DNA from: a virus
IMG/VR virus record: IMGVR_UViG_3300031622_000015
Coordinates: 1-27,005 of that record
Direction: 5' to 3' (one strand)
DNA length: 27,005 nt
Under the pieces are notes generated by a model. That model did not search any database, was not told the origin of the DNA, and was given only the letters and a program-made list of their open reading frames with translations. Position 1 is the first letter of the stretch; each line of letters opens with the position of its first letter. The position numbers and the translations under genes were made by a program. Shown in pieces: positions 3,426 to 25,152 of the stretch.

Positions 3426-4175
3426 TTATGGAGTTGAAGCAGCAGGTATAACACTGAAGCTCTTTGATTTACAAAGTACTGTCATACCAGCACTAAAATC
3501 TCCTAGGTTCGTTCGTGCTGGAGGTGTTATGATTGTTTGGCCTCCAGTTGAACTATTAAATGAATTAGGGTCAACCGGGTCGGATCTAATTTGCCCATCT
3601 GTTTTAGAGTTATAAGCACATTTCCAATAAAACCCGAAAGAATTTGATGCTGGAGACGCCCCTGAACCGTGAACATTCGTAACTGTTACATAATACGTAC
3701 TATCGGGAAAGCTTCCTGGAGAGCCGGCGCTGCCGGTGCCGCCGATGGTGAAGACCGATGAACTAGTGCTCTGAGCGACCTGCGAACCCCCTTTAGCGGT
3801 AAATACTGTAACAGTAAAACTACCACCCCCACTGCTATCCACACTACCAAATAAAGGGGTTATTCTAATACCACCATTATCATTCCTGCCATACCGTTCA
3901 TAAGTTTCGTTTCTTATTGATATAGTACACCCAAAAATAGCTGAGCCTTTAAATTCAGACCATTTAACGTTTGTATACGCTCCTTTAACCATTGCCGGGG
4001 TTACTGCATAAGTTTCGAACCACCTTTTTAAACCAACCGGACCCGAATTTGCTTTATTTTGAGAATAAGTACCGCCACCGCTTTCATTAAATTTTATGTT
4101 GACCATAAGGTTTAAGCTAGTATTAGCACCACTAGCGCTTCCTATTCCAACTGTATTTCTTATATAACCGGGCAT
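3426..4175 (-). CDS. Gly/Ser/Thr-rich presumed virion (tail-fibre-like) protein
   Basis: A 249-aa protein rich in Gly, Ser, Thr and Asn with beta-strand patterning (FTVTVFTAKGGSQVAQSTSS; STYYVTVTNVHGSG), typical in composition of phage fibre or decoration proteins; no specific family is recognised. Cys residues are few (about 83, 186 and 235). It starts with an ATG placed 5 nt after a late box (AATAAATA, 4181-4188), so it is the first gene of a late transcript running into the two downstream genes. A patch at 3721-3780 (residues about 132-152, Gly/Ser linker) is about 67 percent GC by direct count, far above its neighbours. That may mean a recombined segment, as is common in adsorption proteins. 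Confidence 0.65.
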   Translation of the reverse strand: MPGYIRNTVGIGSASGANTSLNLMVNIKFNESGGGTYSQNKANSGPVGLKRWFETYAVTPAMVKGAYTNVKWSEFKGSAIFGCTISIRNETYERYGRNDNGGIRITPLFGSVDSSGGGSFTVTVFTAKGGSQVAQSTSSSVFTIGGTGSAGSPGSFPDSTYYVTVTNVHGSGASPASNSFGFYWKCAYNSKTDGQIRSDPVDPNSFNSSTGGQTIITPPARTNLGDFSAGMTVLCKSKSFSVIPAASTP

Positions 4176-4180
4176 ATTAT

Positions 4181-4188
4181 TATTTATT
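4181..4188 (-). promoter_or_regulatory. Late promoter -10 box (AATAAATA)
   Basis: The minus strand reads AATAAATA, then ATAAT, then the ATG at 4175. The spacing of 5 nt fits a T4-type late promoter with a leaderless start. Confidence 0.65.
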
Positions 4189-4189
4189 A

Positions 4190-4462
4190 CTATTTCTTCT
4201 TATTCCAGTCAACTCTCTTAGAACTTTTCTTTTTATACATTTTACCCTTTATTTTCTTACATGCAGCTTTAGTTGGTCTACATGCTGGATAACTACCTCC
4301 TGATTTTTTTGACTTTCTTCCGCAAGGTCCTCCAGTCTTACAATTTATCCAACCGCTAAATTTTTTACCCGTCTTAGGATCTTTACCACCGCGTTTAAAC
4401 CATTGATGGAGACTATCACTAGCTTCAATCAAATAATGGTCAACTAGATCATCAAATTTCAT
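4190..4462 (-). CDS. Small basic Cys-containing protein with capsid-targeting-like leader
   Basis: A 90-aa, very basic protein. Residues 1-13 (MKFDDLVDHYLIE) form a leader ending in L-I-E, the type of site cut by T4-like prohead protease, followed by the body: WFKRGGKDPKTGKKFSGW, a Cys cluster (INCKTGGPCGRK ... YPACRPTKAACKK) and a lysine tail. Four to five Cys in C-x5-C and C-x6-C arrangements could bind zinc. Similar small basic proteins are widespread in marine T4-like phages without known function. Inference: it is packaged in the head and binds DNA, perhaps helping neutralise or condense it. The gene overlaps the upstream 53-aa gene by one base (TAATG) and belongs to the same late operon. 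The final RVDWNKKK resembles a motif in the oxygenase. Confidence 0.75.
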   Translation of the reverse strand: MKFDDLVDHYLIEASDSLHQWFKRGGKDPKTGKKFSGWINCKTGGPCGRKSKKSGGSYPACRPTKAACKKIKGKMYKKKSSKRVDWNKKK

Positions 4463-4623
4463 TATTTACCAGCTTTACGCATTTTATTAGAATGCAATTT
4501 ATCGCCTGATTTTTTTGCTGCTTTATAAGCTTTACTACCTTTTCTTGCAGATCTCTTACCAGACTTTCTCTTTTTATTAATGTTAGCCCATAAGCTTTCT
4601 AATATTGTATCGAATTTATTCAT
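4462..4623 (-). CDS. 53-aa very basic small protein with capsid-targeting-like leader
   Basis: Small gene found by reading between its neighbours. It encodes 53 aa starting MNKFDTILESLW; I-L-E at residues 7-9 fits the prohead-protease site seen in its neighbours. The remainder is about 40 percent Lys+Arg (KKRKSGKRSARKGSKAYK ...). The ATG overlaps the end of the upstream gene (ATGA, 4 nt) and its TAA overlaps the ATG of the next (TAATG), which is strong evidence of a real translationally coupled gene. Composition suggests a nucleic-acid-binding, histone- or protamine-like peptide. No homologue is named. Confidence 0.75.
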   Translation of the reverse strand: MNKFDTILESLWANINKKRKSGKRSARKGSKAYKAAKKSGDKLHSNKMRKAGK

Positions 4624-4991
4624 TTCTTTTTCCAAATTTTACCTTTACGGCATCTTACCATTGCTCCTGATTTATATGCTGAAGTTTTTTTACCATATAC
4701 ACTATCAGCTTTTCTTTTACATCTATCTTCACCATCTTCTGCAGGGGGTAAACTATCAATATAAAAGTCACCTTCATGGTAGAGATTACCATCTTCTCGA
4801 TAATGTAAATGAGTATTAATTCTTACACCATTATCAAGGGTAATAACGTCGTACTTTTTATTGTGATCGACAACTTTACCTTTTGATGTGGAGTTTGTTG
4901 TACCACCACCGGATGTATCTTTTGTTGCATATACTATATTTTTACCAATATAGTTTGACGCCTCTTCATAATATGTTTTAAATGTCTTCAT
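4620..4991 (-). CDS. Small basic protein with capsid-targeting-like leader
   Basis: A 123-aa protein. The leader MKTFKTYYEE closely resembles the known start of T4 internal protein III (MKTYQEFIAE) and would be cut after Y-E-E. The middle (residues 15-75) has a short beta-barrel-like stretch (GKVVDHNKKYDVITLDNG) suggestive of an SH3-like or KOW-like fold. The C-terminal part has two Cys in a basic context (DRCKRKADSVYGKKTSAYK, then AMVRCRKGKIWKKK), a module I recognise from many small marine T4-like phage proteins of unknown function. Lys-rich overall. It lies in a compact late operon with the basic proteins on either side. Likely a packaged DNA-binding or head protein; the function is unproven. 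Confidence 0.75.
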   Translation of the reverse strand: MKTFKTYYEEASNYIGKNIVYATKDTSGGGTTNSTSKGKVVDHNKKYDVITLDNGVRINTHLHYREDGNLYHEGDFYIDSLPPAEDGEDRCKRKADSVYGKKTSAYKSGAMVRCRKGKIWKKK

Positions 4992-4997
4992 AATAAA

Positions 4998-5312
4998 TTA
5001 CCATTTTTTGCATGACCAGTAGCCTGCTGTTGTTCTATCCTTCTTTTGATCGCATTTATGACGTGCTCTGAAAGATCTACGAGCTGCTGGATTAGATTTG
5101 CGTATTCTCATTGTTTTCCTTTTAGCAGATGTACCGCCATGTCCAAAATTAACCTTCTTCACATTACCAGTCTTAGGATTTTTTACATACACCTTAAACT
5201 TCTTAACATCACCTCTTGTAGGTTTATTAAGAGTTACTTTTCTGCCTTTATATTCTGCGTCTTCGCTGGCGACTGCTTCCATAAGAGAAGAGTATAGTTT
5301 ATCGAATGTCAT
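4998..5312 (-). CDS. Basic Cys-containing conserved marine-phage protein with capsid-targeting-like leader
   Basis: A 104-aa highly basic protein. Leader MTFDKLYSSLME (L-M-E at 10-12), then a body ending in KVNFGHGGTSAKRKTMRIRK and SFRARHKCDQKKDRTTAGYW followed by SCKKW. I recognise this SFRARHxC...TTAGYWSC tail from small proteins of T4-like cyanophages, where it has no assigned function; a C/H arrangement (H, C, C) could hold a metal. It is the first gene of a late operon: AATAAATA at 5318-5325, then 5 nt, then the ATG. It is divergent from, and shares promoter DNA with, the gene at 5336. Probably packaged in the capsid and bound to DNA. Confidence 0.75.
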   Translation of the reverse strand: MTFDKLYSSLMEAVASEDAEYKGRKVTLNKPTRGDVKKFKVYVKNPKTGNVKKVNFGHGGTSAKRKTMRIRKSNPAARRSFRARHKCDQKKDRTTAGYWSCKKW

Positions 5313-5317
5313 TTAAT

Positions 5318-5325
5318 TATTTATT
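5318..5325 (-). promoter_or_regulatory. Late promoter -10 box (AATAAATA)
   Basis: Minus-strand AATAAATA, 5 nt, ATG at 5312. It overlaps by 3 nt with the opposing late box at 5323-5330. Confidence 0.65.
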
Positions 5326-5330
5326 AAATA
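5323..5330 (+). promoter_or_regulatory. Late promoter -10 box (ATTAAATA)
   Basis: Plus-strand ATTAAATA, then ATAAT, then the ATG at 5336. It is the same octamer as the box at 819-826 and is back-to-back with the promoter for the minus-strand gene at 5312. Confidence 0.6.
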
Positions 5331-5335
5331 ATAAT

Positions 5336-5866
5336 ATGAATAACGAAGCTAATCTAATATTTGAACAATATAAATCAGTAAATGAAAATATGGGTATGGG
5401 ACCCATGGTCGGTAAAATGGTAAATGTACCCGGACCAGGTTCACAAAATACAGCTTCTAAAGTAGTTGTATTAAAGCTTAATAATAAAAAAGATTCACCT
5501 TGTGAAGATGGAGAAGCAGTATTTATCCAAGCCGGTGATCAAAATGAATGTGAAAGTGGTTGTGATGATTGTAGTGATGATGATTATGATGGTGAATTAG
5601 ATATGGCAAGAGCTGAATTACTTAAAGCAGCAGAGTATGCAACTAAGTTATTTAACCATCTTGAAAATTTAGATAATTTAGAAGGTTGGACAGCTTCTAA
5701 AATAACAAAAGCTGCTGACTACCTATCATCAGTCTATCATGCATTAGAGTATGATAATTTAGATGCTGATGTAGAAGACGAGCAAGACCCTGATGTGGAT
5801 AGAGTAGAAGTTGACGAGTTAGACGATACTGAAACCGCTAAAAATACTGGTTACGCTGGAGCTTAA
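5336..5866 (+). CDS. Acidic late protein with capsid-targeting-like leader
   Basis: A 176-aa, strongly acidic protein not recognised. I start it at the ATG at 5336 rather than the in-frame ATG at 5306 because 5336 is exactly 5 nt after a late -10 box and because the protein then begins MNNEANLIFEQYKSVNE, with an I-F-E prohead-cleavage-like site at 8-10. Then follow a Gly/Met-rich stretch, a short segment with four Cys (PCEDGEAVF; NECESGCDDCSDDD, residues about 50-80), and a helical region (90-150) ending in an Asp/Glu tail. The CxxxCxxC cluster could bind metal. As an acidic partner beside several very basic packaged proteins it might balance charge or chaperone them; this is inference. It ends 4 nt into the convergent gene. 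Confidence 0.7.
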   Translation: MNNEANLIFEQYKSVNENMGMGPMVGKMVNVPGPGSQNTASKVVVLKLNNKKDSPCEDGEAVFIQAGDQNECESGCDDCSDDDYDGELDMARAELLKAAEYATKLFNHLENLDNLEGWTASKITKAADYLSSVYHALEYDNLDADVEDEQDPDVDRVEVDELDDTETAKNTGYAGA

Positions 5867-7839
5867 ATCAATTTATTGTCGAAGATTCTTTTAACTTCTT
5901 CATCTAATGAACCGTAAAGATCTATAATAAGATCTCTCCTACCTTGTTCGTCTGATTTTTTATATAATTCTCTAATTTGAGATGCACTTCTTATATCTTT
6001 ACCAAGAATATTAAAATCCATAGTAGGTAGAGTTGCAATATAACCGTGTTTATCTCCACTAGTCATTTTTTTAGATTTATCATACGGTTGAAAGTAACTT
6101 GGTTCACCATTTTTCTTTAAACCGAATTTAAAACGTGGTTTATCCCCTTCCATATCTTTTTCTGAAACAGCAAATATAACTTTAGTTTTATCTAAATCAT
6201 ATCTTTCTGTTATCTCATTTGCCAAGTATGGGTTAGCAGTCATTTCAACAAATTTTGGATCAATACCAGCACTTTGTATCATTCTTTGCTTTTCATCAAA
6301 TTCAAATGGTGAATTAGTATCATTTGTTTTACCGGACGTTGAAATAAATACATCTGCGGTCGGAAATTGTTGTTTCAATTTATCATAAACAGATGCATGT
6401 CCTTTATGAAAAGGGTGAAATCTACCTGGATATATAACTACTGTTTTTGTTAAATCTTCGGCTTCTTCAAATTCTTTTAACATCTTATACATTTCACCAA
6501 ATGAAGCTCTTTTTTGTAATCTCATACCTTCACCTGTATTAAAAATGGGTGGATTACTAATATATGATTCTTGATTTTCTGGAGACGTTGGTTTACCGGT
6601 ACCAAAATTAGCGCGGCTAAATTCTTCCCTGTCTACCATTTTAGTAATTTCAGCACCATCAGCAGTAACTTTTGATAGAGCAAATCCTTCCGGGGCAGTT
6701 GTTTGCCAGTTATTAGGACTTTCTTCAAGATATGTACCTAGCAGATCATTTTGTGTTATTTCATTAAAAATTTTAATTAAATTATTTTTTAAATTAGCAA
6801 TAATTTTAGTAATTTCGAAAGCATTTTTAATAGAAGGTTTAAGTGCTTTGAGAGATTTTAATGTTGATTTCATTTTCTCTTGCTTTTTAGCCTTACCTTT
6901 TTCACTTTTAAGTTTTTCTATCTCTTTGGTAAATCTACCACCAATATAGTTAACATATTCTTCAGTAGATATCGATGTATCTTCTAAGAATCTACCTGAT
7001 CTTATTTCTGAATTAATATAAGATTTAAGAGTACTTGTATAATCATCTAGAGAACTAAAATCTACCTTATCGGCTAATTTAAGAAGTTGTTTCTTTTTAA
7101 CCTTTACATCTTTTAAAAGTAATTTACCGAAAGATGATTTACTATTTTTAGGTTTATTTGCTAATACATTAAAAACAAACACTGTATTAGATGGTGAAAA
7201 TTCATCTGTTGAAGAAGTATATTTTTTAACTTTCAATATACCATTTTGTACCATATATTCGATATGAACTGCAACGCCTATCTTAGATCTTGCAATTTGA
7301 TCTCCATATGGGCTATTTTCAGTAACCGCATACTTAATAGTATTGGGGGTAAAGGTTAAAAATTTATTTTCATTTTTAACACCATCAATTGTTTCTGGTG
7401 CTTCATACACTTTCATTTGAGGATCAAACATATAATCCATTTGATATATACCTTTAAGATTTAAAGATGGTAAATACCGTAAAGCTAATATTAATTTATC
7501 TGCTAAACCACCTGTACCATGATTTTCGATAATATCTTCTTCGGAGTAGTTAATTTTTGGGTTTTTAGCAAAAGCTGATTTACTAGCTACGAAAAATTTA
7601 TTATTAGTATCAACACCTGCAACGATAGCAGGCGCGCCGTCAAACTTAGTAGATATTTTATAATCCGATTCGTCTACAAAATATGATATAGAAGATTCTA
7701 TTTGGTTAATAGCTTCTATAACACCTTGCTTACCTTTATTAAGTATATTTTCTTCTAAATGGTCAATATGCTTAACTGCTCCATCGATTGCATCAAAGAA
7801 TTCTAATAGTACTGTATGGTGTTGTTTAAATGTTTTCAT
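5863..7839 (-). CDS. Ligase-like (DUF6267-type) / cytidylyltransferase-like fusion with capsid-targeting-like leader
   Basis: A 658-aa two-domain protein. Residues 1-13 (MKTFKQHHTVLLE) form a T4-like capsid-targeting leader ending L-L-E. The N-terminal domain (about 55-330) has STKFDGAPAI, a K-x-D-G motif (Lys65) like motif I of covalent nucleotidyltransferases (DNA/RNA ligases, capping enzymes), with a later VKK (203-206) in the place of motif V; this matches the phage family I know as DUF6267. A Lys-rich helical linker follows. The C-terminal domain (about 465-658) begins TVVIYPGRFHPFHKGHAS, with the HxGH nucleotidylyltransferase motif (His478, His481), and carries DIRSASQIRELY (615-626), like the ISSTxIR motif of NMN/pantetheine adenylyltransferases. 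Inference: a nucleotidyl-transferring enzyme carried in the head and delivered with the DNA. The substrate is unknown. The candidate late box ATAAAATA lies at 7845-7852. Confidence 0.75.
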   Translation of the reverse strand: MKTFKQHHTVLLEFFDAIDGAVKHIDHLEENILNKGKQGVIEAINQIESSISYFVDESDYKISTKFDGAPAIVAGVDTNNKFFVASKSAFAKNPKINYSEEDIIENHGTGGLADKLILALRYLPSLNLKGIYQMDYMFDPQMKVYEAPETIDGVKNENKFLTFTPNTIKYAVTENSPYGDQIARSKIGVAVHIEYMVQNGILKVKKYTSSTDEFSPSNTVFVFNVLANKPKNSKSSFGKLLLKDVKVKKKQLLKLADKVDFSSLDDYTSTLKSYINSEIRSGRFLEDTSISTEEYVNYIGGRFTKEIEKLKSEKGKAKKQEKMKSTLKSLKALKPSIKNAFEITKIIANLKNNLIKIFNEITQNDLLGTYLEESPNNWQTTAPEGFALSKVTADGAEITKMVDREEFSRANFGTGKPTSPENQESYISNPPIFNTGEGMRLQKRASFGEMYKMLKEFEEAEDLTKTVVIYPGRFHPFHKGHASVYDKLKQQFPTADVFISTSGKTNDTNSPFEFDEKQRMIQSAGIDPKFVEMTANPYLANEITERYDLDKTKVIFAVSEKDMEGDKPRFKFGLKKNGEPSYFQPYDKSKKMTSGDKHGYIATLPTMDFNILGKDIRSASQIRELYKKSDEQGRRDLIIDLYGSLDEEVKRIFDNKLI

Positions 7840-7844
7840 TTTTT

Positions 7845-7852
7845 TATTTTAT
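7845..7852 (-). promoter_or_regulatory. Possible late promoter box (ATAAAATA)
   Basis: Minus-strand ATAAAATA, 5 nt of A, then the ATG at 7839. It overlaps the stop codon of the upstream gene. It deviates from TATAAATA more than the others, so confidence is lower. Confidence 0.4.
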
Positions 7853-9060
7853 TTGACTGTTAAACCTACTGCCCCGTAGAAATCGTCAGATTCTACCTTT
7901 GAAACGATAAAATGATCTACAATAATATTATACATATCATTAAATGTCGTTGAATCATCTACTTTAAAAGCATATGAATCTAAATTATCATCACAAGCCC
8001 AGAGTGTATTAAATTTATGTCCGTCAGAATGCCAATAATATAATATTTGGAGAGCTCCAATAATATTTTTTATATTATATTCATCCTTCACGAGATTTAA
8101 AATATCTTTTTCTGATAACCATTCCTCAAAAGAAGATATTACCTCATCATTAACTTGTTTTTTGGGTGTACCATACACAAGTAAATCAAAAATTGCATTT
8201 TCTTTTATAGATTTATCTTTTTCACTATCTAAGACCACTTGTATCATATGTACTAATGTTTCATATGCTTTTCTACCCTTCTCACCGGAGGTTGAAAAAG
8301 GTAACTTAAATTTTTCCGAAGTCGATTTAATATTGTTTAAAGCAACATCTGGATCACCGTGACCCATTCTAGCCTGTGGCCCTTTTACTTCAATCAATTC
8401 CCCTTTTCTTTCTAGATCGCCCTTTTTTGCCTTTTTTGTATCTGATAAAAATATAATACCGCCTAATTCTGGCCAACCTACACTAACCGAGCCTTTACCG
8501 GGCTGCTTACTGATAGCATAAACAAGAGACCTTGAATGCTCACCTATATATTTTGATGGATGTTCTTTAATTACAAAATCTACCCAATTAAATTCTGTAA
8601 CTAATGGTAAATCTGCTTGTACTTTATTAGTATTTAAATCATTTACAATATCTAGAACTTCTTGAAAGGCATCTTCTCCATCCATATCAACGAAATTCAT
8701 AATATGATTTTTAATATTAGATACAGCATCTCTATCTCCTTGTCCAAGTTTTGAAGAATATTTACCTATGGTTAATAATCTAGCAATACCGTCATCTATT
8801 TTTTGCTGTAGTTTTGGTTCATTTGCAGGTAAATATGCCTTCCCAGCCCCTTCTTTTTCGCTACGACCCTTCGGTATACGAAATTCTGCACCTGCAGCTC
8901 TCTCTAAATCTCCATCATCGAAGGGTAACCCATACTGTACTTCATCAGTAGGCATCTTTGATCTTAGATCTTCACCAATTACCCGTTGTCTTGGTAATTT
9001 AGATACTTTCTTACCAGCAGCTTCCTGTAAGTATGTGTCTGTTAGCGATTTCCAACTCAT
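7849..9060 (-). CDS. Late protein with capsid-targeting-like leader and possible PD-(D/E)XK nuclease core
   Basis: A 403-aa protein. Leader MSWKSLTDTYLQEAAGKK (L-Q-E at 11-13). The centre has GGIIFLSDTKKAKKGDLERK followed by GELIEVKGPQARMGHG: Asp215, then Glu224-x-Lys226, the spacing expected of a PD-(D/E)XK nuclease core (D-x8-E-x-K), with a hydrophobic strand before each. Several phage structural proteins have a similar GD...E(L/V)KG segment, so the motif may mark a structural relative rather than an active nuclease. The C-terminal 150 residues are mixed helix/strand without a motif I know. The gene overlaps the upstream proline-rich gene by 4 nt (ATGA) and sits 9 nt before the ligase-like fusion gene, inside the packaged-protein operon. 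Confidence 0.65.
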   Translation of the reverse strand: MSWKSLTDTYLQEAAGKKVSKLPRQRVIGEDLRSKMPTDEVQYGLPFDDGDLERAAGAEFRIPKGRSEKEGAGKAYLPANEPKLQQKIDDGIARLLTIGKYSSKLGQGDRDAVSNIKNHIMNFVDMDGEDAFQEVLDIVNDLNTNKVQADLPLVTEFNWVDFVIKEHPSKYIGEHSRSLVYAISKQPGKGSVSVGWPELGGIIFLSDTKKAKKGDLERKGELIEVKGPQARMGHGDPDVALNNIKSTSEKFKLPFSTSGEKGRKAYETLVHMIQVVLDSEKDKSIKENAIFDLLVYGTPKKQVNDEVISSFEEWLSEKDILNLVKDEYNIKNIIGALQILYYWHSDGHKFNTLWACDDNLDSYAFKVDDSTTFNDMYNIIVDHFIVSKVESDDFYGAVGLTVK

Positions 9061-9365
9061 GTTTCGATGTCAATATCTTGTGAATATTTTTTCATTATAT
9101 TAATAAGAGAGGTTAATGATTCTTTTGCGTTAGTTTCATTAATATCTGCTAATATACTAATTTGATCAATATCACTAGCTTCTATTTCTGTAACTAAAGC
9201 TTTTTTAATTAATCTCACCAGTAAGACTTCACCTTCAGGTGATAATTGAGTTACTTCTGGTACCGGTGCTGGCTCTTCAACAGGAGGAGCAACTGGCTCT
9301 TCAACAGGTACTTCAGCTTCATCTTGTTCTAATATTGTGTTATATTGTTCTAGGAATTTTTTCAT
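9057..9365 (-). CDS. Pro/Glu-rich small late protein with capsid-targeting-like leader
   Basis: A 102-aa acidic protein. Leader MKKFLEQYNTILEQDEAE (I-L-E at 11-13), then a Pro/Glu/Val linker (VPVEEPVAPPVEEPAPVPE) encoded in part by a 24-nt-period direct repeat, then a compact helical C-terminal domain (about 42-102: LLVRLIKKALVTEIEASDID ... LTSLINIMKKYSQDIDIE). It overlaps the upstream gene by one base (TAATG) and the downstream gene by 4 nt, so it is translationally coupled. Not recognised beyond this; probably a packaged or scaffold-associated small protein. Confidence 0.7.
   Translation of the reverse strand: MKKFLEQYNTILEQDEAEVPVEEPVAPPVEEPAPVPEVTQLSPEGEVLLVRLIKKALVTEIEASDIDQISILADINETNAKESLTSLINIMKKYSQDIDIET
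9269..9308. repeat. Short direct repeat in Pro/Glu linker
   Basis: CTGGCTCTTCAACAGG occurs at 9269-9284 and 9293-9308 (24-nt period). It encodes the repeated E-E-P-V/A-P residues of the linker and probably arose by slippage. Confidence 0.75.
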
Positions 9366-10180
9366 TATATTTTAATTGTTTTAATTTTGTTAGCTATCTT
9401 TTTCATAACATCCCCATATGCTTTATTAATTTCTTTTTGCGGATCTTTTTGAAATGATCTTCTCGTAGGATCATTAGCCAAGGTTTGAGCTACTTTAATA
9501 GCATCTCGTTGACCTTTATCTAAAAATGGTTGTTCTTGATCTTCTATACTAGTACCTCTCATAGAATTAATTTTATTATACATATCTTCGAGTTCTTTAA
9601 ATTCATCACCACCATCGTTAACCAATTCACCTTGTTCGATAGGTCTATTATGGTAATCGTCTACTACTACATCTTCTTTATTATAAAGAGCTCTTCTTGC
9701 TTCAGCATATTCACTGTTATTTCTAAAAGCATTCATTTTTTGTCTTAATTCTGACTTTTTTTCAGGATCTTTTTCTGTCATTATTAGACGAAACAAATCT
9801 TTACGTTCTTTTTCTCTTTCAAGGTGACCTTGATAGTCATGCTTCTTTTTAAACTCATCAGTCTCAGCTGCTCCTGAACGTAGGTTTGTAATATCATGAT
9901 TAACATAATCACCAAACTTAGTTAAAAATCTACTTAATAGTACTTCAGGTGAATCTGGAGAGTTCTTATTACCACCTATACCGTGAACGTTCATTGAATA
10001 TAATCTAGCAAAACTTCCAGAATCTAAAATATCTTTTCTAGACTTACCTACAAGACTTCTTAAAAAATCACCAAATGATTTGCCTGATTTCATTTGTACC
10101 ATTATTTCGTTGTCTGATGAGCCGATTGGCTGACCATATTCACGTAAAAACTGATTGGCCGTTTGATTAAATTTGTCCAT
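9365..10180 (-). CDS. Helical late protein with capsid-targeting-like leader
   Basis: A 271-aa, charged, mainly helical protein not recognised. It starts MDKFNQTANQFLREYGQP, with L-R-E at 12-14 as a prohead-protease-like site. Residues 30-110 include KSFGDFLRSLVGKSRKD and FARLYSMNVHGIGG; 120-175 is a strongly charged helix (LEREKERKDLFRLIMTEKD) likely to form a coiled coil; the C-terminus is basic (MKKIANKIKTIKI). It heads the operon that continues into the Pro/Glu-rich protein, the nuclease-like protein and the ligase-like fusion, with a good late box (GATAAATA) 5 nt before its ATG. It could be an internal head or scaffold-like protein. Confidence 0.7.
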   Translation of the reverse strand: MDKFNQTANQFLREYGQPIGSSDNEIMVQMKSGKSFGDFLRSLVGKSRKDILDSGSFARLYSMNVHGIGGNKNSPDSPEVLLSRFLTKFGDYVNHDITNLRSGAAETDEFKKKHDYQGHLEREKERKDLFRLIMTEKDPEKKSELRQKMNAFRNNSEYAEARRALYNKEDVVVDDYHNRPIEQGELVNDGGDEFKELEDMYNKINSMRGTSIEDQEQPFLDKGQRDAIKVAQTLANDPTRRSFQKDPQKEINKAYGDVMKKIANKIKTIKI

Positions 10181-10185
10181 ATTAT

Positions 10186-10193
10186 TATTTATC
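10186..10193 (-). promoter_or_regulatory. Late promoter -10 box (GATAAATA)
   Basis: Minus-strand GATAAATA, then ATAAT, then the ATG at 10180. It overlaps the end of the upstream gene. Confidence 0.6.
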
Positions 10194-10749
10194 TAATTAG
10201 AAGTAGTTTTGTAGATAGTCTATTAAAGTAATCTTTATTTAAAAACGTTAATTCGTAACGTTTTGTAAACTTTTTTACGCCTGAAAATGTATACTTACTA
10301 ATATCCATATTATTAATTTTACTTACCATCGAATTTATTGTTGTTTGAGCTTTACCATCATTTATACCGATTAGATGATCAAGATATACTATAGAATATT
10401 TACTTATAAATATTTTTAAAGGTAGGAGTCTATCTACTCTACGAAGAAAATTGGTAAAAAAGGTTAAAATGTCTTTTTCTTTAAAATATTTTGTTAATTC
10501 ACAGTCATCTAACTGAGTATTATTAAAGTATATAATAGACTTTGACTTGCAATTGAGTAACCTTTGACATATATTGTATATGGTATAGTGGTATATAAAC
10601 TTTTTAACCTGTAGATTGTTTATACTCTTTTCTAATAAGTTAAATTCATGTAAAGAATTGATTATCTCTGGTTGTATATCGTTTATTAATAACTCATTAA
10701 AGTCAATTATAGTAAAATCATAATTTTCTATATGTAAATCAGCCATCAT
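10189..10749 (-). CDS. Conserved hypothetical late protein
   Basis: A 186-aa protein, Ile/Leu/Asn-rich, with no motif I recognise. The start is uncertain: GTG (10752), ATG (10749) and ATG (10746) are consecutive codons; I use 10749. All three overlap the upstream GIY-YIG-like gene, implying coupled translation. Segments such as FIYHYTIYNICQRLLNC and FTNFLRRVDRLLPLKIFISK suggest a helical fold with an amphipathic core; there is no clear membrane span. It lacks the capsid-targeting leader, so it is probably not part of the packaged set even though it lies among those genes. Confidence 0.6.
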   Translation of the reverse strand: MMADLHIENYDFTIIDFNELLINDIQPEIINSLHEFNLLEKSINNLQVKKFIYHYTIYNICQRLLNCKSKSIIYFNNTQLDDCELTKYFKEKDILTFFTNFLRRVDRLLPLKIFISKYSIVYLDHLIGINDGKAQTTINSMVSKINNMDISKYTFSGVKKFTKRYELTFLNKDYFNRLSTKLLLIR

Positions 10750-11173
10750 CACTATTATTATAGTACTGTTCCAAAAACAATTTAGGAGCTTTACCTATTC
10801 TACAGTTTATAATACCATTATAATAATTTTCACTCAATAGAACATCCTTTTCAAACTGCATTTTAGTTTCGAAATATGATAATTCAAATTTGCTATTGCA
10901 AAATTTTAAAATTTTAAAGTTAAATTTATCTATACCTAGTGAAGATATATCACTATTAAGAGCATCTGATGAACCTGTATATGTTTTCCAATCACTTTCA
11001 ATGTAATCAATACGTTTACGTTTTTTACCTTTTAATGGTTTACGTTTTATTTTACGAACCATTTGCTTTTTACCGATATATTTCTTATCATTAATAGTGT
11101 TAATAATTTCATATATAAAACCGAAAGTACCTTCCGGTATCGGTTTATATACCTCCCATATACCTGTATCCAT
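10739..11173 (-). CDS. GIY-YIG-like endonuclease domain protein
   Basis: A 144-aa protein with a GIY-YIG-like core: GFIYEIINTINDKKYIGKKQ (residues 18-37) gives the first two strands and the Y-I-G element. It is followed by a basic stretch (RKIKRKPLKGKKRKR), a WKTYTGSS turn and a possible catalytic Glu102 (YFETKMQF). Known of the family: metal-dependent DNA cleavage in homing and repair enzymes. Short stand-alone versions are common in T4-like phages. Inference: nucleolytic trimming or resolution of DNA late in infection, or a homing relic. A late box (AGTAAATA, 11179-11186) sits 5 nt before the ATG. No capsid-targeting leader. Confidence 0.65.
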   Translation of the reverse strand: MDTGIWEVYKPIPEGTFGFIYEIINTINDKKYIGKKQMVRKIKRKPLKGKKRKRIDYIESDWKTYTGSSDALNSDISSLGIDKFNFKILKFCNSKFELSYFETKMQFEKDVLLSENYYNGIINCRIGKAPKLFLEQYYNNSDDG

Positions 11174-11178
11174 TTAGA

Positions 11179-11186
11179 TATTTACT
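11179..11186 (-). promoter_or_regulatory. Late promoter -10 box (AGTAAATA)
   Basis: Minus-strand AGTAAATA, then TCTAA, then the ATG at 11173. It overlaps the stop of the upstream gene. Weaker match to TATAAATA. Confidence 0.5.
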
Positions 11187-11451
11187 TTTTATTCTTGGAT
11201 TTTCTAGTTTTTCTCTTCTTCTTACCCACTTTACCGTTTCTGGAATAAGTTACACCTAGAGCTGTTGGTCTTCTAAAATCACCAGGAGCATAAGCATCTG
11301 TACCTGGAGTACCGCTAACTGTTGTACCATACCCAGCTGCAGCAGTAGGTCCTAAAGCCCCACCACCGACTGTATTTTCATCTTCCTCTGTTGTATTTTT
11401 CCTTTTTAGTATTTTTTTAAATGCTTTTTCAAATAAAGTTGTTTTCTTCAT
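11182..11451 (-). CDS. Small Gly-rich basic-tailed protein with capsid-targeting-like leader
   Basis: An 89-aa protein. It begins MKKTTLFEKAFKKILKRK, with an L-F-E site at 6-8. A Gly/Ala/Thr-rich middle follows (GGGALGPTAAAGYGTT), then TDAYAPGDFRRPTALG, a segment (DAYAPGDxRxPxxLG) I recognise from small proteins of marine T4-like phages, and a Lys/Arg tail (KKKRKTRKSKNKK). The basic tail suggests DNA binding. It is the first minus-strand gene left of the early block. Its promoter TATAAATACTATT is identical to the T4 late consensus and ends directly at the ATG. Confidence 0.7.
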   Translation of the reverse strand: MKKTTLFEKAFKKILKRKNTTEEDENTVGGGALGPTAAAGYGTTVSGTPGTDAYAPGDFRRPTALGVTYSRNGKVGKKKRKTRKSKNKK

Positions 11452-11466
11452 AATAGTATTTATAAT
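11439..11466 (+). promoter_or_regulatory. Sigma70-type promoter for uvsY
   Basis: TTGTTT (11439-11444), 16 nt, TATAAT (11461-11466), 6 nt, GTG start at 11473. The predicted transcription start is at or next to the start codon. Confidence 0.65.
11457..11464 (-). promoter_or_regulatory. Late promoter, perfect T4 consensus (TATAAATA)
   Basis: Minus-strand TATAAATACTATT followed at once by the ATG at 11451. This is the T4 late consensus, with the expected +1 on the A of ATG. It overlaps the opposing sigma70 -10 box of uvsY. Confidence 0.85.
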
Positions 11467-23875: not shown

Positions 23876-25152
23876 TAACCGTGTCTATTCATTCTTTCTT
23901 GAGAATGAGCATTTTGCATTTTTTGCCTGTGTTGATTGATCAAGTAGTTATTAATATCTTGTTGAGACATTGCAACTTGCTCTTCTTCTTCAGATTCTGA
24001 CGGTTTCTTTTTTCTAAGCTTACCTGTTATTGGGCATCTTTCTTCTCCTTCATCAGGTGCCTCATCAGGTTCCATTTCACCCATTTGATCATCATCAGGT
24101 GCCTCATCAGGTTCATATTGGTCATTATCGTCTTGTTCGTCTTTAGGTAAAATCTTTTTCATTAAATGACTACCAACAGCACCAGCTGCCCCGACTGCAA
24201 TCCCAGTTCCTAAGATAGGTAATATATTATCTTCTGCAGGTTCGTCTTCATCTTCATAATGATCTGCAACTGCTCTTGCATGAGATTGACCAGCCCTTTC
24301 TTGCTCTTTCTTCATTGCTTTAGCAATAGCTACCCCTCTTGATCTTTCATATGAAGAAATCTCACCATCATCATTTAAATCTGATTTTTCTTTATCAATT
24401 TCTTCACCTTCTGGAACACCAACACCATCTTGACGGCTCATATAACTAACAGCGTCGATTGCATTTGACATACCATCTTCTTCACCTTCTGGAAAATCAG
24501 CAACTAATTTTTCTCTATTACCCATTTCTATTTCTCCACCAAATTTATCAACTTTTTCTGTTTCACTTGGTTTAACAATAACAACTGAAACAATATCATC
24601 TTTAGATATATCATCTAAATTAAGTTTTTGACCTTTAAAAGAATTAAGAGTAACTCTATATTTTAAACCATCGCTTACTACTGTATATAAATCATTTTCA
24701 CCAACACCACCTTCAGATTTTAAGGTGGTATCCCCTCCAAGATTTAATTGTAAAGTTTCAAAACCTGTATCACCTTTCTTAAGACCTTCTTTTGCTGCGC
24801 CTCTTGCTCTTGTTGTAATTTGAACATCTGGTCTTGTAGCTAATGGTTTAGAAACATTGGCCATAATATTAATAGCATTTTGAATATTATCATCAGTTAA
24901 ATCTTCTAAATCTAATTCAGGATTTTCTTTTTGTAAGTATCTAATTACCTTGGTAGCAAAGTATCTAGGGGTCATTGTACCTTTAAGATCTCTAATATCT
25001 TCCATACCCATTAGTTTTGCTCTTAACGGATCAGCAATTTTCTTACCTCTTGCTTCTTGGACCAAATCATCGTCCCCTTCATGCATACCTTGCATATATT
25101 GAGAAGCACTTTCGTTAATAATTTTTTTGTTACCCCAGTTATGTAAATTCAT
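23872..25152 (-). CDS. Acidic late protein with EF-hand-like loop, Gly-rich segment and capsid-targeting-like leader
   Basis: A 426-aa acidic protein not assigned to a family. N-terminus MNLHNWGNKKIINESASQ, with an I-N-E site at 12-14 and a second V-Q-E at 31-33 followed by ARGKK, like LQEAAGKK in the 9060-7849 product. Residues 258-269 (DLNDDGEISSYE) are a full EF-hand calcium-loop pattern followed by RSRGVAIAKAM; such loops occur in other marine T4-like phage proteins. Residues 309-329 (NILPILGTGIAVGAAGAVG) form a Gly/Ala-rich hydrophobic stretch that could insert in a membrane. An acidic, partly repeated segment follows (EPDEAPD twice). First and only gene of its late transcript (AATAAATA box). 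Probably packaged in the head or part of the virion. Confidence 0.7.
   Translation of the reverse strand: MNLHNWGNKKIINESASQYMQGMHEGDDDLVQEARGKKIADPLRAKLMGMEDIRDLKGTMTPRYFATKVIRYLQKENPELDLEDLTDDNIQNAINIMANVSKPLATRPDVQITTRARGAAKEGLKKGDTGFETLQLNLGGDTTLKSEGGVGENDLYTVVSDGLKYRVTLNSFKGQKLNLDDISKDDIVSVVIVKPSETEKVDKFGGEIEMGNREKLVADFPEGEEDGMSNAIDAVSYMSRQDGVGVPEGEEIDKEKSDLNDDGEISSYERSRGVAIAKAMKKEQERAGQSHARAVADHYEDEDEPAEDNILPILGTGIAVGAAGAVGSHLMKKILPKDEQDDNDQYEPDEAPDDDQMGEMEPDEAPDEGEERCPITGKLRKKKPSESEEEEQVAMSQQDINNYLINQHRQKMQNAHSQERMNRHGY
24051..24114. repeat. 22-nt direct repeat in acidic linker
   Basis: A perfect 22-nt unit occurs at 24051-24072 and 24093-24114 (42-nt period); it contains CATCAGG twice. 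It encodes the repeated EPDEAPD segment on the minus strand. Confidence 0.8.

Follow-up and report, generated by a model that had tools for sequence, protein, structure and literature searches.

A probable T4-type capsid-targeting system with a modular cargo island

In the 27,005-base virus record IMGVR_UViG_3300031622_000015, a genome fragment analyzed here at its full length and hereafter called the window, we examined a gene island at positions 3426–11451, together with the gene at 25152–23872, whose products begin with a short leader ending in hydrophobic-x-Glu (hxE). With a probability of roughly 84%, we interpret these genes, from sequence comparison, as a capsid-targeting system of the T4 type whose cargo island is enlarged and modular. 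An initial annotation had listed ten such leaders in the island and one in the gene at 25152–23872. All eleven were present exactly as quoted, and the neighboring genes at 4175, 3413, 2703, 11173, and 868 lacked the leader, as that annotation had claimed; the gene at 10752 likewise lacked it. Eight or nine of the leaders are convincing; the weak ones belong to genes 5306 and 25152. The leaders are listed below, with a slash at the predicted cut; the p-value ranges span the T4-only profile and the larger leader model described later.

11428..11451, minus strand: leader of gene A (11451–11182), MKKTTLFE/; T4-only profile p = 0.096, larger model p = 0.04–0.06
10139..10180, minus strand: leader of gene B (10180–9365), MDKFNQTANQFLRE/; profile p = 0.001 (0.07 T4-only)
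9327..9365, minus strand: leader of gene C (9365–9057), MKKFLEQYNTILE/; profile p = 0.015–0.02
8971..9060, minus strand: leader of gene D (9060–7849), probable 30-residue propeptide MSWKSLTDTYLQEAAGKKVSKLPRQRVIGE/, with an upstream hxE at E13
7801..7839, minus strand: leader of gene E (7839–5863), MKTFKQHHTVLLE/; profile p = 0.007–0.009
5336..5365, plus strand: possible leader of gene F (5306–5866), MNNEANLIFE/; weak, profile p = 0.13–0.22
5277..5312, minus strand: leader of gene G (5312–4998), MTFDKLYSSLME/; profile p = 0.04–0.10
4962..4991, minus strand: leader of gene H (4991–4620), MKTFKTYYE/E; profile p = 0.001
4597..4623, minus strand: leader of gene I (4623–4462), MNKFDTILE/; profile p = 0.05–0.06
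4424..4462, minus strand: leader of gene J (4462–4190), MKFDDLVDHYLIE/; profile p = 0.001–0.03
25054..25152, minus strand: possible leader of gene K (25152–23872), hxE at E14 and at E33 (LVQE/ARGKKI); weak, profile p = 0.19–0.30

In the mechanism that we propose, an N-terminal peptide, mostly of 9–14 residues (up to about 30), with an aromatic residue near position 3–4 and a terminal hydrophobic-x-Glu, would bind the gp22-type prohead core. A gp21-type protease would then cut the leader off, and the cargo would be left in the head beside the DNA. This cargo would be a mosaic, in which small basic proteins stand beside a gp23-arm-like peptide, a fusion enzyme of DUF6267 and NMNAT, and a nuclease-like protein of hypervariable sequence; leaders and bodies have been exchanged during evolution. 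Packaging of these proteins in the head of this phage is likely, whereas their injection and action in the host are speculative.

No near match to the window was found among phage records. On the plus strand, the window encodes UvsY, a UvsW-like helicase, a late sigma factor, and further replication and recombination genes including a DNA polymerase. Because the sequence identity of this polymerase to its counterparts in T4-like cyanophages is about 30%, we assign the window to a divergent marine T4-like myovirus. With the DUF6267 protein of gene E as the query, 64 loci were found in IMG/VR. Since the window is only a 27 kb fragment, two of these relatives were used for genome-wide tests, with genes called by a simple script: G001, a 185 kb record whose DUF6267 protein is 87–89% identical to that of the window, and G002, a 184.5 kb record in which the identity is about 61%. 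G001 is close to the window, so the window, G001, and G002 are not three independent tests; G002 is more distant.

Enrichment of the leader motif in the island

Two versions of the motif were counted. The loose motif was an hxE ending at residue 8–14, and the strict motif additionally had an aromatic residue at position 3 or 4. The island set in the window comprised the 11 genes called between 4190 and 11451, including the GIY-YIG gene at 10739, which has an hxE by the loose rule only. The loose motif was found in 11/11 island genes and 5/20 other genes of the window (Fisher p = 5.2e-5), in 9/11 and 47/198 genes of G001 (p = 1.5e-4), and in 9/10 and 48/186 genes of G002 (p = 7e-5). The corresponding counts for the strict motif were 8/11 and 1/20 (p = 1.7e-4), 6/11 and 9/198 (p = 1.8e-5), and 7/10 and 14/186 (p = 5.8e-6). 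With either rule, therefore, the leader was more frequent in the island than among the other genes of all three sequences. The aromatic residue itself, which had not been part of the initial description, occurred at position 3 or 4 in 8 of the 11 listed leaders and in 4 of the 20 other genes (p = 0.006).

These counts bear on the explanation that the leaders are a product of chance, that is, short hydrophobic-x-Glu strings in AT-rich N-termini that were chosen by eye. In its favor, 24–26% of the non-island genes carry the loose motif, among them UvsY (MSLLDQYIDE) and gp46 (MKYVCFKE), and the false positives UvsY, UvsW, and gp46 score like several of the island genes. The enrichment of the island in the window and two relatives argues against it, as do an independent profile trained on T4, the swapping of modules with a conserved cut boundary, and the leader-bearing cyanophage proteins found in virion proteomes (all described below), so that we regard chance as highly improbable. 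The claim that the leader discriminates island genes from their neighbors therefore holds as an enrichment under both rules and fails for the loose motif alone, which we rejected as a classifier because of its background. Conservation of hxE across relatives was also dropped as a discriminator because UvsY conserves its own hxE too.

A T4-trained profile and virion proteins of cyanophages

A profile was built only from the T4 leaders of the internal proteins (IPs) IPII/IPIII (MKTYQEFIAE) and IPI (MKTFKEFTSTTTPVSTITE) and of Alt (MELITELFDE), with the starts read from the T4 record and internal methionine starts as the null; a larger leader model was also scored. With the T4-only profile, the eleven genes had a combined p of 4.9e-7, compared with 0.32 for the remaining window genes. 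Together with the strict-motif enrichment, this result identifies the leaders as predicted short N-terminal propeptides of the capsid-targeting sequence (CTS) type with a gp21-type hxE end, as the initial annotation had proposed, with genes F and K individually weak.

The same profile was applied to the 219 N-termini of the cyanophage S-CREM2, for whose virion proteome 52 proteins are listed (PMC10665884 Table 3). The top six consisted of five non-structural virion proteins detected by mass spectrometry (MS) and the gp21 protease; five of the 28 non-structural virion proteins at the top of the ranking corresponds to p = 1.3e-4. Their leaders are MKNFSSFLTE (cytidylyltransferase), MKDFDSFLEE (S-adenosylmethionine (SAM) hydrolase), MKDLHSFLTE (gp13), VKRFDAFLTE (APH-like kinase), and MQTFSMFFSE (gp136). 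The Cas9-like gp12 has a longer N-terminus with the end RFASFMAE/A. Leaders were also seen in a cytidylyltransferase of S-SZBM1 that was MS-detected in virions (MRFRQFIIE) and in a kinase of S-CRM01 (MISFDQFLSE), which has been reported from virions (PMC10665884). Homologues of the NMNAT/cytidylyltransferase-like domain of window gene E have been reported in the virions of five phages, S-CREM2, S-SZBM1, S-SCSM1, S-CBWM1, and S-SM1 (for S-SM1, PMC3037559). Of the initial claim that about eleven proteins are carried in the capsid, we retain that most of the set, including the two enzyme-like proteins, probably is; leaders of this type occur on cyanophage proteins that were MS-detected in virions.

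Several observations weigh against this interpretation. At a background of about 25%, the loose motif alone is not enough to recognize a leader, and genes 5306 (T4-only p = 0.13) and 25152 (T4-only p = 0.19) are individually weak by profile. In gene D, E13 is kept in 12 of 15 sequences and is replaced by K or T in the other 3 relatives. In S-SZBM1, S-PM2, and S-CRM01, the DUF6267 orthologue has no leader, so this domain is not always tagged. Most S-CREM2 non-structural virion proteins (e.g., gp155, gp156, gp160, and gp176) have no clear leader; virion association therefore does not require the leader and is not fully predicted by it. A Mann-Whitney comparison of all non-structural virion proteins with the non-virion proteins of S-CREM2 gave p = 0.37, with enrichment only at the top of the ranking. 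Finally, the authors of two cyanophage proteomes caution that non-structural virion proteins may be co-purifying contaminants.

Two further observations concern these phages. S-CREM2 gp12, the Cas9-like virion protein (OR473000 7704–10313), and S-CRM01 128c (HQ615693 100701–101252), which has 183 residues, have very different body lengths and a common long N-terminus, RW..W..G......SF..E/A. A search for sequences resembling the leader of the S-CREM2 SAM hydrolase matched S-CREM2 alone.

Protease, scaffold, and capsid protein of the relatives

A search for a gp21-like protease, which the initial annotation had suggested as a check, found PF03420 (Peptidase_S77) above the cut-off in G001, G002, G004, G008, and G010; none was found in the window itself, a 27 kb fragment. 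In G001, gp22 begins MDIKQILSE/A and contains 7.7 hxE per 100 residues, compared with an average of 2.3. The gp23 proteins have hxE/A sites near the position expected from T4 (LNE/A in G001 and FRE/A in G002). Cleavage of the leaders in this phage is likely.

The island proteins might instead be processed parts of the prohead core or scaffold that stay in or leave the head and are not injected cargo. Such a role fits the leader-like start of G001 gp22, the leader-profile score of gp21 itself, the small size and basic character of several island proteins, and the resemblance of gene A to the gp23 arm. We consider it unlikely, since two of the island proteins are enzyme-like, which a scaffold would not need, and leaders of this kind are found on the T4 IPs, which are injected (PMC9026906, PMC12373910).

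Exchange of leaders and bodies among relatives

In the comparison of N-termini among relatives, most of the leaders or their hxE were conserved. In gene A, the initial 11–13 residues are constant and the bodies differ. The relatives of gene B conserve MDxF...AN...L, with the cut Glu shifted downstream in some, and those of gene C vary in leader length but retain hxE. The leader of gene E is conserved as xxFKQ[HY]....[LIN]E in relatives with identities as low as 57%. Gene F, on the plus strand at 5306–5866, has an in-frame upstream ATG (5306), so its start is uncertain; NLIFE is conserved among its close relatives. The hxE of gene I is retained as ITFDQLVE, gene J relatives keep YL[ITN]E/AS, and the boundary E/ARGKKI of gene K is conserved with G001. 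Genes G, H, I, and J all encode small, basic proteins.

The leaders behave as exchangeable modules in these alignments. An H-family gene at locus L017 begins with MKTFDKLYSSLME, the leader of window gene G, and the DNA is near-identical. In family H, the leader and a C-terminal basic module stay the same, and the part between them varies or is lacking; in the L003 gene the leader is joined directly to the C-terminal module. Bodies of family J carry MKFDDLVDHYLIE, MITFAEFFTE, or MEQMSQKSLLE, with MITFAEFFTE/ being that of G002 on the same kind of body. Because one leader is common to G and H, because a gene may consist of a leader and a C-terminal module only, and because different leaders occur on one body, the leader can be regarded as separable. 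A further module is shared between bodies: a Gly/Ala-rich segment of gene K recurs in the L017 H-family gene (L017:12839–13306; 78% nucleotide identity over 104 bp, E = 9e-15) and is absent from G001 K. The initial description of the proteins as otherwise unrelated is therefore mostly correct as far as the bodies are concerned, although small modules recur in several of them when relatives are compared.

A common N-terminus might also be a signal of another kind, for example, one that serves translation or the binding of a partner from host or phage. The N-terminal motif MTRKDINLLAEAY recurs on tandem genes of G002 and scores with the profile, and AT-rich genomes can be expected to show some codon preference at N-termini. 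Such a signal would not account for the match to the features of the T4 CTS, the hxE cut sites, or the detection of leader-bearing cyanophage proteins in virions, and we judge it improbable. The tandem genes are four small genes at G002:C1:8033–9041, in which the N-terminus MTRKDIN-L[LI]AE, a mimic of the leader, stands on different bodies.

Enzyme-like and other bodies of the island

The following features lie behind the leaders or beside the leader-bearing genes.

11257..11364, minus strand: gene A residues 30–65, homologous to the mature N-arm of gp23 by sequence match, followed by a basic tail
10739..11173, minus strand: SegE-like GIY-YIG endonuclease gene in the island, with no leader (PF19835 E = 1.8e-31)
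8383..8469, minus strand: PD-(D/E)xK-like signature of gene D, E198...G214-D215...E224-x-K226, in invariant columns
6592..7773, minus strand: DUF6267 domain of gene E, with KFDG at residues 65–68 (Pfam PF19782 E = 6.8e-77)
6163..6435, minus strand: NMNAT/cytidylyltransferase-like domain of gene E (Pfam PF01467, 34.7 bits, cut-off 21)
24136..24237, minus strand: Gly/Ala-rich hydrophobic module of gene K, also inserted in the L017 H-family gene

The initial annotation had mentioned two possible enzymes, and genes D and E are indeed enzyme-like, the former by its signature and the latter by its Pfam domains. In 15 sequences of gene D, the first 30 residues have a mean pairwise identity of 0.62–0.74, which drops to 0.22 and then to 0.14. 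The best single change point of conservation falls right after residue 30, where E30 is invariant in 15/15 sequences, with a hydrophobic residue two positions before it in most. The propeptide is probably 30 residues long, because the change point coincides with the invariant E30 and E13 is lost in three sequences. For two of the eleven cut sites given in the initial annotation, those of genes D (9060) and K (25152), a later Glu (E30 and E33, respectively) is better supported. The body of gene D is only about 20–24% identical across these 15 divergent sequences, yet E198, D215, E224, and K226 are invariant and form the acidic-acidic-ExK signature of the PD-(D/E)xK superfamily. Profile searches gave no PDB sequence match and no convincing Pfam match, and the AlphaFold model had a mean predicted local distance difference test (pLDDT) score of 45.7, too poor for a structure search. 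From the signature, we infer that gene D may encode a nuclease.

The 658-residue product of gene E matches DUF6267 (PF19782) with 259.8 bits against a cut-off of 27 and ends in the NMNAT-like domain. The KFDG (KxDG) of DUF6267 is nearly invariant, and we presume that it resembles the KxDG motif of ligase-type nucleotidyltransferases. The C-terminal part belongs to the NMNAT/CTP_transf_like group by a profile score above the cut-off and a nucleotidyltransferase fold; its best Foldseek matches were NadD enzymes with weak E-values (about 1e-3 at best), and the structure model (pLDDT 61 overall) is informative for this domain only. In G002, the NMNAT-like domain is a separate gene (60666) with its own leader, MKSFKQFILE/.

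Residues 30–65 of gene A matched G001 gp23 residues 75–110; of the 36 aligned residues, 58% were identical (E = 3.6e-9 in a search of all 212 G001 proteins). The matching region is the N-arm right after the predicted cut of gp23, and in gene A it may be a shell-binding peptide.

Comparison with known systems

The CTS of T4, its residues, and its removal are established (PMC9026906), and the T4 IPs inhibit type IV restriction enzymes once injected (PMC12373910). The ip genes were previously found through their signal, and at least ten have been reported from T4 relatives (PMC12373910); giant phages have large sets of processed ejection proteins (PMC5694885). The window resembles T4 in the short N-terminal leader of IPI, IPII, IPIII, and Alt, with its hydrophobic-x-Glu end and an aromatic or hydrophobic residue near position 4, in the modular attachment of the leader to unrelated bodies at a plastic locus, and in the gp21-like protease and gp22-like scaffold of its relatives. 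In contrast to the three IPs and Alt of T4, about ten genes lie in one island here, many leaders have 12–14 residues and one probably 30, and the bodies, which include the DUF6267-NMNAT fusion, the nuclease-like protein, and the gp23-arm-like protein, are not IP homologues. No island protein had a Pfam or PHROG match to IP families, so these are not T4 IPs proper.

Among T4-like cyanophages, we compared the SAM hydrolase, APH-like kinase, and cytidylyltransferase of S-CREM2, the cytidylyltransferase of S-SZBM1, and the kinase of S-CRM01. These virion enzymes share with the window an NMNAT/cytidylyltransferase homologue, IPIII-like leaders, and a similar locus (near uvsY, uvsW, and the late sigma gene in S-CREM2), but the window enzyme is fused to DUF6267 and the remaining cargo is different. 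The leader is not mentioned in the publications examined on these enzymes. In the giant phages phiKZ and SPN3US, the head proteins likewise form a large set, and a prohead protease cuts N-terminal propeptides from several of them; unlike here, these propeptides are mostly long (often > 100 residues), the protease is of another family, and the genomes exceed 200 kb. The cargo was initially described as far larger than that of T4, and this is correct with respect to the three IPs and Alt. The size is not unprecedented, because T4 relatives are reported to have at least 10 IPs between them, large sets of processed ejection proteins occur in giant phages, and in S-CREM2 a leader is borne by at least five of the non-structural virion proteins. 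A search combining “capsid targeting sequence” with “Kyanoviridae” found no paper applying the CTS to this phage family; subscription literature lay outside the search, and we make no claim of priority.

If our interpretation is true, the head-loading leaders of marine T4-like phages can be read from sequence, which would provide a catalogue of candidate injected proteins for abundant ocean viruses whose accessory genes are mostly uncharacterized. It would also offer an answer to a question raised by the authors of two cyanophage proteomes, namely whether virion-associated enzymes such as NMNAT, SAM hydrolase, and kinases belong to the cargo or are contaminants. Five S-CREM2 non-structural virion proteins carry a T4-like leader. 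A further reading, possible but on balance doubtful, is that the island works as a delivery platform, on which the address label stays constant and the payloads are quickly replaced. The conserved 30-residue leader would bring a hypervariable PD-(D/E)xK-like nuclease into the host along with the phage genome, beside an injected ligase/NMNAT-like fusion, and the nuclease would attack host or competing DNA or counter defenses. In that case, the same labeling would account for the enzymes in cyanophage virions, including the Cas9-like protein.

Expression context and the SegE-like gene

The island genes are probably late, as judged from their context. The late-promoter motif TATAAATA showed no enrichment, with 7 copies in the window against an expectation of 11.6. 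One copy lies at 11464–11457, 5 bases ahead of the ATG of gene A, and would suit a leaderless late mRNA. With the simple gene caller, nearly all window genes had no Shine-Dalgarno-like motif upstream. The SegE-like GIY-YIG gene at 10739–11173 lies within the cargo island and might aid the spread of the island.

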